The notes beneath the pieces were generated by a model that was not told the origin of the DNA, ran no database searches, and was given only the letters and a program-made list of their open reading frames with translations. A stretch of DNA of 35,029 nucleotides from Marinimicrobium sp. (GTDB taxonomy: Bacteria; Pseudomonadota; Gammaproteobacteria; Pseudomonadales; Cellvibrionaceae). Below, piece by piece: positions 27,709 through 33,094 of the stretch (position 1 is the first letter of the stretch; each line of letters begins with the position of its first letter). The stretch covers positions 1 through 35,029 of the forward strand of contig DAHVRW010000010.1 in assembly GCA_027322215.1 (NCBI GenBank). The letters run 5' to 3'. Made by a program: the position numbers and the translations under genes.

Positions 27709-28152
27709 ATGGTTTGGATTCTGGTGCTGCATATTTCCGCCATGCTGTTTTGGTGTGCCGCACTGTTGTATCTCTCTTCGTTAATCGTCGGCACCGCGCA
27801 TTCACAAACTGAGATTACTGACGCGCCCGAACACCATGACTCAATGGCGCGCTTCGTATTTACTCACATCGCCACCCCAGCCGCGCTACTGGCCATTATC
27901 TTCGGTACCTTGTTGTTCGTCGTCGATCTTATCGTGTCGTCATGGCTTATGGTAAAGCTCACGCTGGTTACCGCATTAGTTTTGGCGCACGCCTCGTCAG
28001 GGATTCTTGTGCTGCGATTGGAAAAAAATATGGCTGAGCCGCTGCGGCTGTGGTGTTGGATTCTGGCCGCGACGTGTGGCGTGTTGATGCTGGCGATAGT
28101 CTGGGTCGTGTTGGCAAAACCCACTGAGGAGGTTTTGCCATGGATTGGGTGA
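27709..28152 (+). CDS. CopD/HemJ-like four-helix membrane protein
   Basis: A 147-aa inner-membrane protein with four hydrophobic segments (about 2-26, 50-73, 78-100 and 113-135). Helix 1 has His8 and Trp15, and the second helix starts with FVFTHIATPAA; the conserved histidine layout resembles the CopD/HemJ-like superfamily. Such proteins occur beside haem-copper oxidase genes and may help in haem or copper handling, which is an inference here. GAAGGGAG precedes the ATG. It is convergent with the DUF2231 gene. Confidence 0.65.
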   Translation: MVWILVLHISAMLFWCAALLYLSSLIVGTAHSQTEITDAPEHHDSMARFVFTHIATPAALLAIIFGTLLFVVDLIVSSWLMVKLTLVTALVLAHASSGILVLRLEKNMAEPLRLWCWILAATCGVLMLAIVWVVLAKPTEEVLPWIG

Positions 28153-28196: not shown

Positions 28197-28676
28197 CTAA
28201 GGTTTTACGCGGCGATGCAGCGCCTCATGGGTGTTAACGCCTATCGCATACTCGTACACCAGTTGGCCGCCGAGAATTCCCGTGGCCATAATCAACGCGC
28301 CAGTGAGCAACGAAAGGTATGGGCCCCACGGGAAAATATGCGCAACCGCATCGGTGTAACGCAGCAGCCAATTGAGCGTGGCCAGCGACAGCATCATGAC
28401 GGCAAGAATGGCATGGCTCCAGGCGGTGATGAGGCGGCGAATTCGTGTTACCAAGAGCAAATCTATCAGACCGATGCTGCCGGCAATCCAGCCACCAAAT
28501 GCGCCAATGCCGGCCAACCACAACCCGGCACGTGCCCAGAACTCATCGTGAGTGACAAGGTATCCGACGTCGGTGCCAATCACGCCGATCAGGGCCGCGA
28601 CAGGAAAGTGAATCAAAGTCGGATGAACGGGGTGGCCGCCGATCGCCATCTTGCTCAATATCGGTTCACGAACCAT
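28197..28676 (-). CDS. DUF2231 family membrane protein
   Basis: A 159-aa inner-membrane protein with about four hydrophobic segments. The N-terminal IGGHPVHPTLIHFPVAALIG is the DUF2231 signature, with histidines that could bind haem or metal. The family is often seen beside oxidase or multihaem genes, but its function is not established. I chose the ATG at 28676, which has GAGAGGG 5 nt upstream; an ATG at 28706 would add ten residues with no ribosome site. It lies on the strand opposite to the oxidase operon. The long plus-strand frame covering this region is its shadow. Confidence 0.82.
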   Translation of the reverse strand: MVREPILSKMAIGGHPVHPTLIHFPVAALIGVIGTDVGYLVTHDEFWARAGLWLAGIGAFGGWIAGSIGLIDLLLVTRIRRLITAWSHAILAVMMLSLATLNWLLRYTDAVAHIFPWGPYLSLLTGALIMATGILGGQLVYEYAIGVNTHEALHRRVKP

Positions 28677-28730
28677 GAATGCCCTCTCATCGGTAGTGAA
28701 TGTCATGCGCGTGTTCGGTCGCGTCGATGG

Positions 28731-29444
28731 GTGAGATTAACAGTCCTGAGCAGTGCGTTCATCCCCATTTTTCTCAGTGGCTGCAGCGGACCTTTTTCGG
28801 CGTTGGATGCGGCCGGCTCATCGGCGCGTATCGCCCAGTGGTTGTGGTGGGCCATGGTGCTTTACGCCACCGTGGTGTTTCTGGTGGTCGTATCGCTGTG
28901 GCTGTATGCCATCCGCCGGCCACACGAGGACATAAACAGTGAACAAACAAAAAAATTTGGTCGGCGCCTCATTATAGCCGGGGGCGTCATTTTGCCGATT
29001 GTCAGTACTGGGCTGCTGTTGATTTTCGGAATTCCTGCTGGGCACCGGATGTTGCCGTTGGCGCCGGAAGAAGGCGAGGTGTTTCATGTTCATGTCACCG
29101 GTCACCAATGGTGGTGGGAGGTGCACTATCCCGATTCGAACATCAGCTTGGTGGATGTTGTGCACATTCCGGCGGGCGTCGCTGTCGATGTGCATCTGCG
29201 CAGCGCGGATGTGGTTCATTCGTTTTGGGTGCCACGCCTGGCGGGCAAGCTCGATATGATCCCCGGCCATACCAACGTGTTGCGCATACAGGCGGACGAG
29301 CCCGGCACGTACCGAGGTCAGTGCGCGGAGTTCTGTGGTACCGTCCATGCTCATATGAAATTTGTGGTACACGCACACGCGCCGGAGGACTTTGATCGGT
29401 GGTGGCGTCAGGCCCAGGAGGAGCAGCACGCCTATGAGCACTAA
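28731..29444 (+). CDS. Cytochrome c oxidase subunit II, lipoprotein type
   Basis: A 237-aa subunit II. A signal peptide ends in a lipobox FLSGC (Cys18), two membrane helices follow (about 35-60 and 80-101), then a cupredoxin domain with a complete CuA site: His163 (VVHSFW), Cys198, Glu200, Cys202, His206 and Met209 in QCAEFCGTVHAHM, and the aromatic QWWWE segment for electron entry. No haem c domain is fused. CuA marks it as a cytochrome c rather than quinol oxidase. The frame is open from 28140, but upstream residues are antisense to DUF2231; the GTG at 28731 gives a proper signal peptide. It overlaps the next gene by 11 nt. Confidence 0.88.
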   Translation: MRLTVLSSAFIPIFLSGCSGPFSALDAAGSSARIAQWLWWAMVLYATVVFLVVVSLWLYAIRRPHEDINSEQTKKFGRRLIIAGGVILPIVSTGLLLIFGIPAGHRMLPLAPEEGEVFHVHVTGHQWWWEVHYPDSNISLVDVVHIPAGVAVDVHLRSADVVHSFWVPRLAGKLDMIPGHTNVLRIQADEPGTYRGQCAEFCGTVHAHMKFVVHAHAPEDFDRWWRQAQEEQHAYEH

Positions 29445-31950
29445 CCATCGCAGCGAAGGCAGTGCACTGCGTGAAGAATTAGAGAAGGTTTGGGCGAACC
29501 TTCCCGGCTGGGGCGCGCTGGCGGCGGTCAACCACACCAGCGTCGGCCTGCGATTTATTATTACCGGTGGTGTGTTCTTTCTGATCGGCGGAATTTTAGC
29601 CATGCTGATGCGAACGCAGTTAGCGCTGCCGGAGCAAAACATCGTGCATGCGGAACTGTACAACCAGCTGTTTACCATGCACGGCACAATCATGATGTTC
29701 TTGTTCGCTATTCCGATTCTTGAAGGCCTTGCGGTCTATCTGATACCTAAAATGATTGGTGCCCGGGATTTGGTGTTTCCGCGCATCGGTGCTTTCGGGT
29801 ACTACTGTTATCTGTTCGGTGGAATCATCATTCTGTTCAGTCTGTTTATGGGCGTGGCGCCCAACTCCGGCTGGTTTATGTACACGCCGCTAAGCAGTTC
29901 CACCTACGCGCCGGGGCCGGGCTCGGATGTTTGGTTGTTGGGCGTTACCTTCGTGGAAATCTCGGCCTTGTCGGCGGGTATCGAACTGGTGGCGTCGATT
30001 TTACGCAGTCGAACCAATGGTATGACCTTGGGCACCATGCCCATATTCTGTTGGTACATTCTCGGCATGGGGCTGATGATTGTGTTCGGCTTTCCGCCCT
30101 TGATTCTGGCCAGCATTTTGTTGGAGCTGGAGCGCAGCGTAGGCATGCCGTTTTTTTCCGTTGAAGGCGGGGGCGACCCGCTGCTGTGGCAACATCTGTT
30201 CTGGCTCTTCGGGCATCCCGACGTCTATATTATTTTTCTGCCCGCCGCCGGGGTGGTATCTACCATTTTGCCGGTGTTCGCACAGCGGCCTCTGGTGGGT
30301 TATCGCTGGGTCGTTCTGTCCATTATCGTTATGGGATTTATCAGCTTCGGATTGTGGGTCCACCACATGTTTACCGTGGGAATCCCGCAACTGGCACAGG
30401 CTTTCTTCTCCGCCGCCAGCATGTTGGTGGCGGTGCCCACGGCTATTCAGATTTTTGCCTGGCTGGCCACCCTGTGGACGGGAAAGGTTATTTTGGCGTT
30501 ACCCATGTTATGGATATTGGGATTTTTGTTCATCTTTGTGGCCGGCGGTCTGACCGGCGTAATGCTGGCCCTGGTGCCATTCAATTGGCAAGTTCATGAT
30601 ACCCACTTTGTGGTGGCTCATATGCATTACGTCATGGTGGGCGGAATGCTCTTTCCGGTGTTGGCGGGCTTGTATTATTGGTTGCCACAAGTGACCGGGC
30701 GTATGCCGAGCAAACTGTTGGGCTATTGGGGTTTTTGGCTAACGTTTATCGGCTTTAACATGACGTTTTTTCTGATGCACGTCACCGGCTTACTCGGTAT
30801 GCCACGAAGGGTGTACACCTATGAGGCGGATCTGGGGTGGAGCGGATTCAACCTGTTGTCATCGGTCGGCGGGTTTGTGATGGCGGCCGGCGTAGCGGTC
30901 GTTGTTATCGATCTTGCGTTGCATTATCGCTATGGTCGTAAAGCGGGGCGCAACCCATGGAATGCAGACACCCTCGAATGGGCGGTAGAAAAACCCCAGA
31001 GCACATTTAATTTCGCCAGCTTACCCACCGTGCGCAGCCGGCATCCCCTGTGGGACGACCCCACGTTACCCGAGACGATGAATGCAGGTCGGCACGGTTT
31101 GGCCCATGCCCCCCACGGCCGGCGTGAGATTTTCGGCTGTGATCCCATCAGCGGTCGCACACAGGAAATTATTCACGTATCCACCAACTCCTGGTGGCCG
31201 CTGCTGGCCGCCGCCGCGTTGGCCGTGGTGTGCGTCAGTTTATTGCTACGCAGTTATCTCGTGGCATCTGTCGGCGCATTGGTCGCGGTCGCTTTTATGC
31301 TGCGGTGGAGTTGGGAAAACGGACTGCATTCTAAAGCGGCGCCCATGAACGGCGTCGAGCCCGAAGGGGTGCCGCTGCATTCGCGCACTCAAGACGGACC
31401 GGGGCTGTGGGGCATGGGACTGGCGCTGTTGGCAGACGCGGCACTGTACATGTCTTTACTGTTCGGTTGGTTTTATCTGTGGACCGTGGCCGCGGATTGG
31501 CAGGCGCCCGAGCAGATGCCTCTAGCGCTGCCATCATTACTTGCCAGCGGCGTAGCGCTCGGTATTGCCGCCGGATTTTATCACAAGCTGGTGGCCCAGC
31601 TGCGCCGTGGGCGCGGCGATTCGCTGGAGCGGCGTTTGTGGTGGATCAGCGCTATTGGTCTGATTCACGTGGCGTTGATGGGTTGGACACTGCGGGCGAG
31701 TACGCTCGCGCCGACCGAGCTGGCTCACGATGCGGTGCTGTTGGTGATGCTCATTTACATTCTTGTTCACTCCGCTTTGTCGACGGCGGTAACGATGCTG
31801 CAAGCTCTGCGAGTCAGGAAGGGCTACGTCACGAAAGATCTGCCCTACGAGCCCATGGTGTTGCGTCCTCTATGGGTTTATAGCGCCGCCATTTTTTGGT
31901 TGAGCATTCTGGCTTTTATTTTAATGCCGTTGGGCTGGGGGACAGTGTGA
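29434..31950 (+). CDS. Cytochrome c oxidase subunit I/III fusion
   Basis: An 838-aa inner-membrane protein: subunit I (about 1-530) joined to a subunit III-like domain (about 640-838). It reduces O2 at a haem-CuB centre. All metal ligands are present: His83 and His398 (low-spin haem), His261, His310 and His311 (CuB), His396 (high-spin haem), and Tyr265 for the His-Tyr crosslink; GMPRR near the haem propionates is kept. By hand comparison with bovine/Rhodobacter subunit I, the K-channel Lys is Gln339 (PTAIQIF), the helix VI Glu is Asp263 (HPDVY), and D-channel asparagines become Val101, Gly119 and Glu184, while the entry Asp112 remains. The ATG at 29434 overlaps subunit II by 11 nt; AGGAGGAG is upstream. 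The next start overlaps its stop by 1 nt. Confidence 0.93.
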   Translation: MSTNHRSEGSALREELEKVWANLPGWGALAAVNHTSVGLRFIITGGVFFLIGGILAMLMRTQLALPEQNIVHAELYNQLFTMHGTIMMFLFAIPILEGLAVYLIPKMIGARDLVFPRIGAFGYYCYLFGGIIILFSLFMGVAPNSGWFMYTPLSSSTYAPGPGSDVWLLGVTFVEISALSAGIELVASILRSRTNGMTLGTMPIFCWYILGMGLMIVFGFPPLILASILLELERSVGMPFFSVEGGGDPLLWQHLFWLFGHPDVYIIFLPAAGVVSTILPVFAQRPLVGYRWVVLSIIVMGFISFGLWVHHMFTVGIPQLAQAFFSAASMLVAVPTAIQIFAWLATLWTGKVILALPMLWILGFLFIFVAGGLTGVMLALVPFNWQVHDTHFVVAHMHYVMVGGMLFPVLAGLYYWLPQVTGRMPSKLLGYWGFWLTFIGFNMTFFLMHVTGLLGMPRRVYTYEADLGWSGFNLLSSVGGFVMAAGVAVVVIDLALHYRYGRKAGRNPWNADTLEWAVEKPQSTFNFASLPTVRSRHPLWDDPTLPETMNAGRHGLAHAPHGRREIFGCDPISGRTQEIIHVSTNSWWPLLAAAALAVVCVSLLLRSYLVASVGALVAVAFMLRWSWENGLHSKAAPMNGVEPEGVPLHSRTQDGPGLWGMGLALLADAALYMSLLFGWFYLWTVAADWQAPEQMPLALPSLLASGVALGIAAGFYHKLVAQLRRGRGDSLERRLWWISAIGLIHVALMGWTLRASTLAPTELAHDAVLLVMLIYILVHSALSTAVTMLQALRVRKGYVTKDLPYEPMVLRPLWVYSAAIFWLSILAFILMPLGWGTV

Positions 31951-32288
31951 TGTTATCACCCGTACACCCGCTGCAATTGGTTTTAGGGCTAACTGTGTGG
32001 GCGGTGTGGTTTGTCATCTGGTATACCGTTTTATCCCTCGCGTGTGAGTTTGCGTCGGCCGGCGGAACATCGGTCAGTTGGATCAATGGCTTGTTGGTCG
32101 TTATTAGCCTGCCCTTTATTGTTTTGCTTTGGTATTGGGCGCGACGGTGCTGGCGTGCAGCGGGCGCGCCAGAGGTGTCCAGCCCGCATCGTTTTGTCGC
32201 TCAGGTGTCCGCAGGAGCGCATAGCGTTGCCGGATTTTCGGTGGTGTTTATGGTCATCCCCGGACTGGTGCTGCCGCCATGCGTATAA
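31950..32288 (+). CDS. Small membrane protein of the oxidase operon, family not recognised
   Basis: A 112-aa protein with three hydrophobic segments (about 9-32, 45-63 and 82-108). I do not recognise the family. It overlaps the subunit I/III stop by 1 nt (TGATG) and the ctaG start by 10 nt, so it is translated within the operon and may be a small oxidase subunit (in the place of subunit IV) or an assembly protein. The frame is open back to 31896, but that part lies inside the upstream gene. Confidence 0.75.
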   Translation: MLSPVHPLQLVLGLTVWAVWFVIWYTVLSLACEFASAGGTSVSWINGLLVVISLPFIVLLWYWARRCWRAAGAPEVSSPHRFVAQVSAGAHSVAGFSVVFMVIPGLVLPPCV

Positions 32289-33094
32289 TTTCTTTGGGGT
32301 TGGCGACATGGTTGCTCTGTAGCCCCTCGGCGTGGGCTCACAACCCCATCACCAGTGATGGTCCGGAGCAGGCGGCGGCACTGTTCAGCGCTTTGTTATT
32401 GGTACTGTTCTGGGGTGTATACACTTTGGGAGCCTGGCGGCGCCCTCCTGGACTGAGCCGGGGGTTGCTCTTTCACAGCGGATCGCTGCTGTGCGCACTG
32501 GCGGTGTTAGGGCCCCTGGATCATTGGGCCAAAGAGAGTACCGCCGCCCATATGGCGCAACATATGATGTTGATGGTGGTGGTTACGCCATTGTGGGCGT
32601 TGAGCCGGCCGCTGCCGCAAATGATCGCCGGTGCAGGCCGCTGGGCTATTTGGTGCGTCCGGCCCATGTTGCCACTGGTGCGCCGCCCCATGTTAAGTGC
32701 TTATCTCCATGCCGCCGCTATTTGGATTTGGCACACACCCGTGTTCTATATGGTGGCGGTAGAGAACCCCTGGTGGCATGCGTTTGAGCACCTGTGTTTT
32801 GTCGCCACGGCGGGATGGTTTTGGTGGTCGATTATGACCCGCAGTGAAAGACGTGCGCCCTGGGCTCTGCTGGCGCTGTTGTTTACCTTGATGCACACGG
32901 GCTTTTTGGGCGCACTGCTGACCTTTGCCCAGAATCCGCTATACGACGAAGCACGCAGCTTAGGCGATCAGCAGCTGGCGGGCTTGATTATGTGGGTACT
33001 GGGCGCAATTCCCTACCTGGGCGTTTCCGCCTGGATGGGACATCGCTGGTATCGGCAGCTTCAGCGACGGATGACAGCCGATCACGTCTCTTAA
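32279..33094 (+). CDS. ctaG: Cytochrome c oxidase assembly factor CtaG (caa3_CtaG family)
   Basis: A 271-aa inner-membrane protein of the caa3_CtaG family, involved in assembly of the CuB centre of caa3/aa3-type oxidases; it is unrelated to the Cox11-type CtaG. Features are an N-terminal signal-like helix (SPSAWAHN), about seven hydrophobic segments, a His-rich AAHMAQHMMLM segment, WHTPVFY, WWHAFEHL and a C-terminal DQQLAGLIMWV. The ATG at 32279 overlaps the preceding gene by 10 nt. It ends the oxidase operon. Confidence 0.88.
   Translation: MRIISLGLATWLLCSPSAWAHNPITSDGPEQAAALFSALLLVLFWGVYTLGAWRRPPGLSRGLLFHSGSLLCALAVLGPLDHWAKESTAAHMAQHMMLMVVVTPLWALSRPLPQMIAGAGRWAIWCVRPMLPLVRRPMLSAYLHAAAIWIWHTPVFYMVAVENPWWHAFEHLCFVATAGWFWWSIMTRSERRAPWALLALLFTLMHTGFLGALLTFAQNPLYDEARSLGDQQLAGLIMWVLGAIPYLGVSAWMGHRWYRQLQRRMTADHVS

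Follow-up and report, generated by a model that had tools for sequence, protein, structure and literature searches.

A clade of haem-copper oxidases that lacks the K-pathway lysine and carries additional conserved carboxylates

A widespread bacterial branch of haem-copper oxidases appears, from its residue patterns, to have dispensed with one of the textbook proton routes and to carry the other in a form altered by extra acidic residues. The enzyme under study is encoded in a 35,029-nucleotide stretch of DNA from Marinimicrobium sp. (assembly GCA_027322215.1, contig DAHVRW010000010.1, positions 1 to 35,029), hereafter the window, as a fusion of subunits I and III. On the aligned sequences, the pattern is a property of the known fused-oxidase family and not of the window enzyme alone, since the combination is fixed in the whole clade, which we term K-less. 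We tentatively favor the reading that the window enzyme is a functional CuA-containing haem-copper cytochrome c oxidase of a distinct A-type-like branch, which would obtain its protons by a rebuilt route along helices II and IV; whether it pumps is uncertain.

Residue requirements for proton uptake and pumping have been argued largely from single mutants, which often stop or uncouple the enzyme. The K-less branch offers a natural test of proton movement in oxygen-reducing respiratory enzymes, since a clade with a fixed combination allows the roles of the K-pathway lysine, the asparagine gate and the helix VI acid to be examined in enzymes that selection has shaped. Culturable genera with clade members, among the best 80 of 591 loci, include Halomonas, Marinobacter, Stutzerimonas and Rheinheimera. 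Definitions of type A that rely on channel residues would miss a branch.

The fused gene and its locus

Translation of positions 29434-31947 yields 838 amino acids without stops, and the stop codon ends at 31950. In the predicted structure, subunit I spans residues ~1-540 with 12 transmembrane helices and subunit III spans residues ~588-838 with seven. The fused protein scores 712.5 bits against TIGR02891 (CtaD_CoxA, cut-off 670.75), and its subunit I part matches Pfam COX1. The Pfam COX3 model found no match in the C-terminal half. Because the best Foldseek match of the fused protein is the Thermus caa3 I+III chain (2yev_A, 814 columns) and the C-terminal half is predicted to contain seven helices, we regard this half as a diverged subunit III. 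The predicted structure has a mean pLDDT of 83.6 and is weak around D263, which lies within the regions where ten-residue means are 48-68 (141-160, 251-270, 301-330, 371-400 and 451-470).

The haem and copper ligands H83, H261, H310, H311, H396 and H398 and the cross-link Tyr265 are all present, as a sequence-only reading of the window had claimed, so the six histidines and the tyrosine after the CuB histidine that characterize subunit I of the superfamily are complete. dN/dS for the COX1 part was 0.046-0.089 in three comparisons, rough values given that dS of 1.8-2.0 is near saturation. The open frame, the dN/dS and the intact ligands rule out a pseudogene. A nitric oxide reductase identity was also rejected, the NorB-like COX1 match of the genome being a separate gene (L004).

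Table 1. Features of the oxidase locus and of the channel residues, in window coordinates
Feature	Coordinates	Strand	Basis or remark
UPF0093 (HemJ/CopD-like) membrane protein	27709..28152	+	Named CopD family in annotated relatives
DUF2231 membrane protein	28197..28706	-	
Subunit II	28731..29444	+	GTG start inferred from sequence; lipobox-like LSGC; CuA ligands kept; overlaps fused-gene start
Fused subunit I+III, aa3-type oxidase	29434..31950	+	TIGR02891, predicted helices, Foldseek
E97 codon, helix II	29722..29724	+	Clade-fixed carboxylate (116/117 rows)
V101	29734..29736	+	Place of D-channel Asn113 (Paracoccus)
D112	29767..29769	+	D-pathway entrance Asp124 kept
G119	29788..29790	+	Place of D-channel Asn131
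E175, helix IV	29956..29958	+	Clade-fixed carboxylate (117/117 rows; Paracoccus Gly190)
E184, helix IV	29983..29985	+	Place of D-channel Asn199 (Glu in 117/117 rows)
D263	30220..30222	+	Place of helix VI Glu278
Q339	30448..30450	+	Place of K-pathway Lys354 (Gln in 117/117 rows)
Small hydrophobic protein, 112 aa	31950..32288	+	Possible extra subunit; no Pfam match
CtaG, caa3 type (assembly factor)	32279..33094	+	Above Pfam cut-off; NCBIfam caa3_CtaG below cut-off

The gene neighborhood (Table 1) recurs in the best 80 of 591 relatives' loci, where the fused gene was found in 80/80, COX2 in 79/80, the CopD-like gene, the DUF2231 gene (on the opposite strand) and the small hydrophobic protein in 78/80 each, and CtaG in 48/80. 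CtaG is located upstream in three plasmid loci of Alphaproteobacteria. The FadL-like and MatE neighbors of the window were seen in none of these 80 loci. The DUF2231 protein and the 112-residue hydrophobic protein are possible extra subunits or assembly factors.

Besides the fused oxidase, the window genome (86.8% complete) carries genes for a canonical A1 oxidase (L001), another COX1-family protein (L003) and the NorB-like protein. A K-less-type match was found in 10 of 58 related genomes, the window genome included. All ten also have an A1-kind match with 40-43% identity over ~505 residues, the channel residues of which were checked in L001 and the fetched loci.

Channel residues of the window protein

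Alignment with the Paracoccus chain of 1ar1 places V101 (GTC), D112 (GAT), G119 (GGT), E184 (GAA), D263 (GAC) and Q339 (CAG) at N113, D124, N131, N199, E278 and K354, respectively. These are the six residues that the sequence-only reading had named from a comparison by hand, and translation confirmed each of them. The first outcome that would have spoken against that reading did not appear: the aligned sequences have no lysine at the place of K354, and the asparagines of the D-channel are not intact. Three features are absent from that reading: E97 in helix II, E175 in helix IV and the loss of the entrance glutamate of subunit II.

The residues listed for the D-channel of type A1 are Asp124, Asn199, Asn113, Asn131, Tyr35, Ser134, Ser193 and Glu278, and those for the K-channel of type A are Lys354, Thr351, Ser291 and Tyr280, in the relevant passages of PMC3084760. 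Compared with the first list, the window protein keeps Asp124, has changed the three asparagines, Ser134, Ser193 and Tyr35 (F41), and has aspartate for Glu278. Of the second list it has lost Lys354 to glutamine and kept Thr351, Ser291 and Tyr280. The helix VI tyrosine of type A2 (YSHP, as in L163 and 2yev) is likewise missing, the window motif being FGHPD.

E97 and E184 both lie in predicted helices. In the MAFFT alignment E97 is matched to Paracoccus F108 across a gap; in the register that runs ungapped from N113, which we used for the helical wheel, it corresponds to G109. By this reasoning E97 precedes the N113 position by four residues (about one helical turn) and sits on roughly the same face. 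Wheel geometry points E175 away from E184, so E175 may not line the same path.

Conservation across the clade

We compiled 117 clade rows, consisting of the window and 116 relatives, from 58 related genomes, 299 genomes of the phylum (among the matches listed), the best 80 of 591 named loci, eight plasmid loci (taken from 960 plasmid records with a match) and further stretches. Two copies of the window (L002, L005) were dropped. Rows with more than 58% identity, 92 with the window, are called gamma-type, a set that includes some betaproteobacteria (Nitrosomonas, Azoarcus); 25 are others. L135, a fused-gene copy broken in genome G106 (two overlapping matches), was excluded from the 117 clade rows and from the 28 A1 rows used as controls.

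The six histidine ligands and the tyrosine are complete in 117/117 rows. The same holds for glutamine at the K354 place, glutamate at the N199 place (E184) and glutamate at the Gly190 place (E175). The N113 place is occupied by I, V, M or L throughout and never by asparagine, and the N131 place has asparagine in six rows, all among the 25 non-gamma rows, and S, T, G or A in the rest. E97 is glutamate in every row except L140, which has Q. In the non-gamma rows the D-entrance aspartate is replaced by asparagine in five and by glutamate in three, with E175 and E184 unchanged. Ser291 is kept in 91/92 gamma-type and 19/25 other rows, and Thr351 in 92/92 gamma-type rows, the 25 others having T (15), S (8) or A (2). 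Lys354 and asparagine at N113, N131 and N199 were present together in all controls (28/28 A1, 9/9 bo3/qox and 4/4 further HPE rows).

The presence of Q339 and E184 in all 116 other rows rules out a sequencing error or single-genome oddity. The helix VI aspartate is found in 4/92 gamma-type rows (the window, L006, L040 and L100), so we set it aside as a local swap rather than the key oddity. The tree does not group L100 with the other three, so this aspartate arose at least twice.

That lineage-specific drift at residues of little functional weight accounts for the pattern, with nothing special about the enzyme, is very improbable: the fused family is indeed already known and D263 is a mild change confined to few rows, but the substituted residues do not vary among the gamma, beta and alpha lineages and dN/dS is low.

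Phylogeny of the K-less branch

A quick maximum likelihood tree was calculated from 78 of the rows, L135 included, with SH-aLRT support without bootstrap and a midpoint root for drawing; L163 (A2) and 7rh5 were used in the 1ar1 alignment and the tree only. All 52 K-less proteins of the tree fall in a single branch (SH-aLRT 100), apart from A1, bo3/qox, A2 and Actinobacterial aa3 proteins. Within it, four HPWVY rows form a group (99), as do the remaining 48 (98).

In these four rows (L142, L143, L144 and L161, from genomes G276, G309, G336 and G006), the helix VI glutamate is replaced by tryptophan and the K-pathway lysine by A, T or Q. They keep the haem/CuB ligands and the D-channel asparagine triad, and have none of E97, E175 and E184. 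With A1, bo3 and A2 as outgroup, we infer that loss of the lysine probably preceded gain of the carboxylates. Genome G006, from the family of the window, holds three K-less members: a fused one (L014), an unfused HPE one (L160) and the HPW one (L161).

Five further relatives (L137-L141) are unfused, their matches ending near query residue 630, and have Q at the K place, E175 and E184. Their D-pathway entrance aspartate is asparagine in all five rows. In L137, COX3 is a separate protein and COX2 carries cytochrome c. In the tree, unfused L137-L140 and L160 adjoin the fused proteins (96, 99). Fusion alone was ruled out as the cause of the residue pattern: the fused Thermus protein (2yev) has the lysine and the three asparagines, and Q, E175 and E184 occur without fusion in L137-L141 and L160.

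Subunit II

The subunit II count covers 116 rows (without L135); the L089 locus has no subunit II, and the entrance column is a gap in L160. The K-pathway entrance glutamate is absent from 115/115 clade rows with a letter there, including the window, and present in 25/25 A1 rows. No column around the entrance has an acid in a majority of the clade subunit II rows. No cytochrome c domain was found in the window subunit II.

The CuA ligands, which define a cytochrome c oxidase, are all present in the window subunit II. Across the clade, the first histidine is kept in 115/116 rows, and both cysteines, the second histidine and the methionine in 113/116 each. In L094, L122 and L129 CuA ligands are replaced (S or G, S or N, Y), which suggests another electron donor for these members of the clade; the L122 gene is annotated 'cytochrome B'. 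L116 has histidine for the methionine, and L067 has arginine in the first histidine column.

Proton routes

Among Rhodobacter mutants, E286D is active and K362M is nearly inactive. A-type enzymes take up about two protons via the K-pathway and six via the D-pathway, according to the passages of PMC6934443 on the two routes. The Discussion of that paper describes Rhodobacter N139D and N207D as uncoupling pumping, with activity kept in N139D, and the paper also reports no effect of the equivalent mammalian mutants on pumping (PMC6934443).

The reading that we favor, tentatively, starts from a loss of the K-pathway lysine in a common ancestor, after which proton uptake for oxygen chemistry would have moved to a rebuilt D-type route. 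Protons would pass along it through the carboxylates of helices II and IV and so reach the acid of helix VI (glutamate; Asp263 in the window). In place of the asparagine gate stand an acid at N199/N207 (Paracoccus/Rhodobacter) and, at N113, a hydrophobic residue that E97 precedes by four positions. We place the main route on helices II and IV because the entrance aspartate varies and E175 and E184 do not. Since an acid at N199/N207 uncouples the Rhodobacter enzyme (N207D), the most natural expectation is that pumping would be lowered or gated differently, although this precedent is a single-site mutant in another context. The window enzyme would thus probably pump less, or by a different gate, and may serve as a second cytochrome c branch beside the canonical A1 oxidase. 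The evidence agrees with the suggestion in the sequence-only reading that other proton routes or altered pumping may be involved; the residue combination itself is fixed clade-wide, and altered pumping would be a deduction from the residues.

A broader claim, which we offer with considerable doubt, is that the clade is a large natural branch without a working K-pathway, in which every proton would pass by a single rebuilt helix II/IV carboxylate route. The HPWVY sister group, which also lost the helix VI glutamate, would then make two natural outcomes after loss of the K-pathway. If true, A-type chemistry can do without proton uptake by two pathways.

It is also conceivable, though on balance unlikely, that the K-pathway works without its lysine, with Gln339, Thr336, Ser276 and waters carrying the reductive-phase protons as in the B and C types, and the D-pathway changes only tuning pumping. 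A glutamine/water route is possible because Thr351 and Ser291 (window Thr336 and Ser276) are mostly kept, the glutamine is invariant, and the K-channels of B and C types lack that lysine, as the channel lists of PMC3084760 indicate. However, the entrance glutamate of subunit II is lost too, the HPW sister rows carry A, T or Q at the K place, and residues at the channel ends are described as essential in characterized A-type enzymes in passages of PMC8239185.

We consider it improbable that the enzyme is a naturally uncoupled oxidase, an electron sink that consumes O2, draws its protons from the cytoplasm by the altered D-pathway and does not pump. The uncoupling by an acid at the N207 position in Rhodobacter and the co-occurrence of an A1-like oxidase would agree with this, but the extra fixed carboxylates suggest a selected new function and not simple loss. 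Some double-acid mutants regain pumping, so the residue logic need not be additive, which counts against the uncoupled reading.

Comparison with known systems

Fused COX1-3 proteins of Proteobacteria have been described as 'COX operon type a' (PMC4013037) and later as 'A1, subtype a' (PMC6431628), with an example from R. palustris of at least 841 residues. PMC4013037 names the R. palustris COX1-3 protein YP_782773. The window resembles COX operon type a in having a COX1-COX3 fusion beside COX2, in Proteobacteria, and from these descriptions of fusion and operon we infer that it probably belongs to this type. The passages of both papers on the fusion, the operon and the tree position mention neither loss of the K-pathway lysine nor gain of the glutamates. 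In the literature covered, to which the supplementary K-channel variant figure of PMC8239418 and a 2020 review do not belong, we found no description of glutamine at the K place together with the glutamate set. Thus the fused family is known and the channel pattern appears new, though the lysine loss may already be shown in that review or supplement. Nor did the literature yield any biochemistry of the K-less clade; passages on the Halomonas elongata caa3 oxidase (PMC9006882) say nothing on channels. In the survey passages of PMC3084760, channel residues of the own type were missing in only 4 of 1216 sequences, and those four grouped with type B; the K-less clade would be an exception to this count.

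CoxMNOP is an alternative oxidase of rhizobia and Pseudomonas, from the passages of PMC5492768 and PMC4274787 that treat it. L137, with its separate COX3 and cytochrome c COX2, is like the coxMNOP clusters described there (PMC5492768), and size and gene order suggest that L137-L141 are CoxN. These CoxN-like proteins share with the window enzyme the glutamine, E175, E184 and (except L140) E97, but are unfused and have asparagine for the entrance aspartate. The A1 aa3 oxidases of Paracoccus (1ar1) and Rhodobacter (1m56) share with it the metal ligands, the cross-link tyrosine, the entrance aspartate and the fold, whereas in the window K354 is replaced by Q, N113, N131 and N199 are changed and the subunit II glutamate is lost. 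The Thermus caa3 A2 oxidase (2yev) is likewise a I+III fusion, but it keeps the lysine and the three asparagines and has YSHP where the window enzyme has FGHPD.
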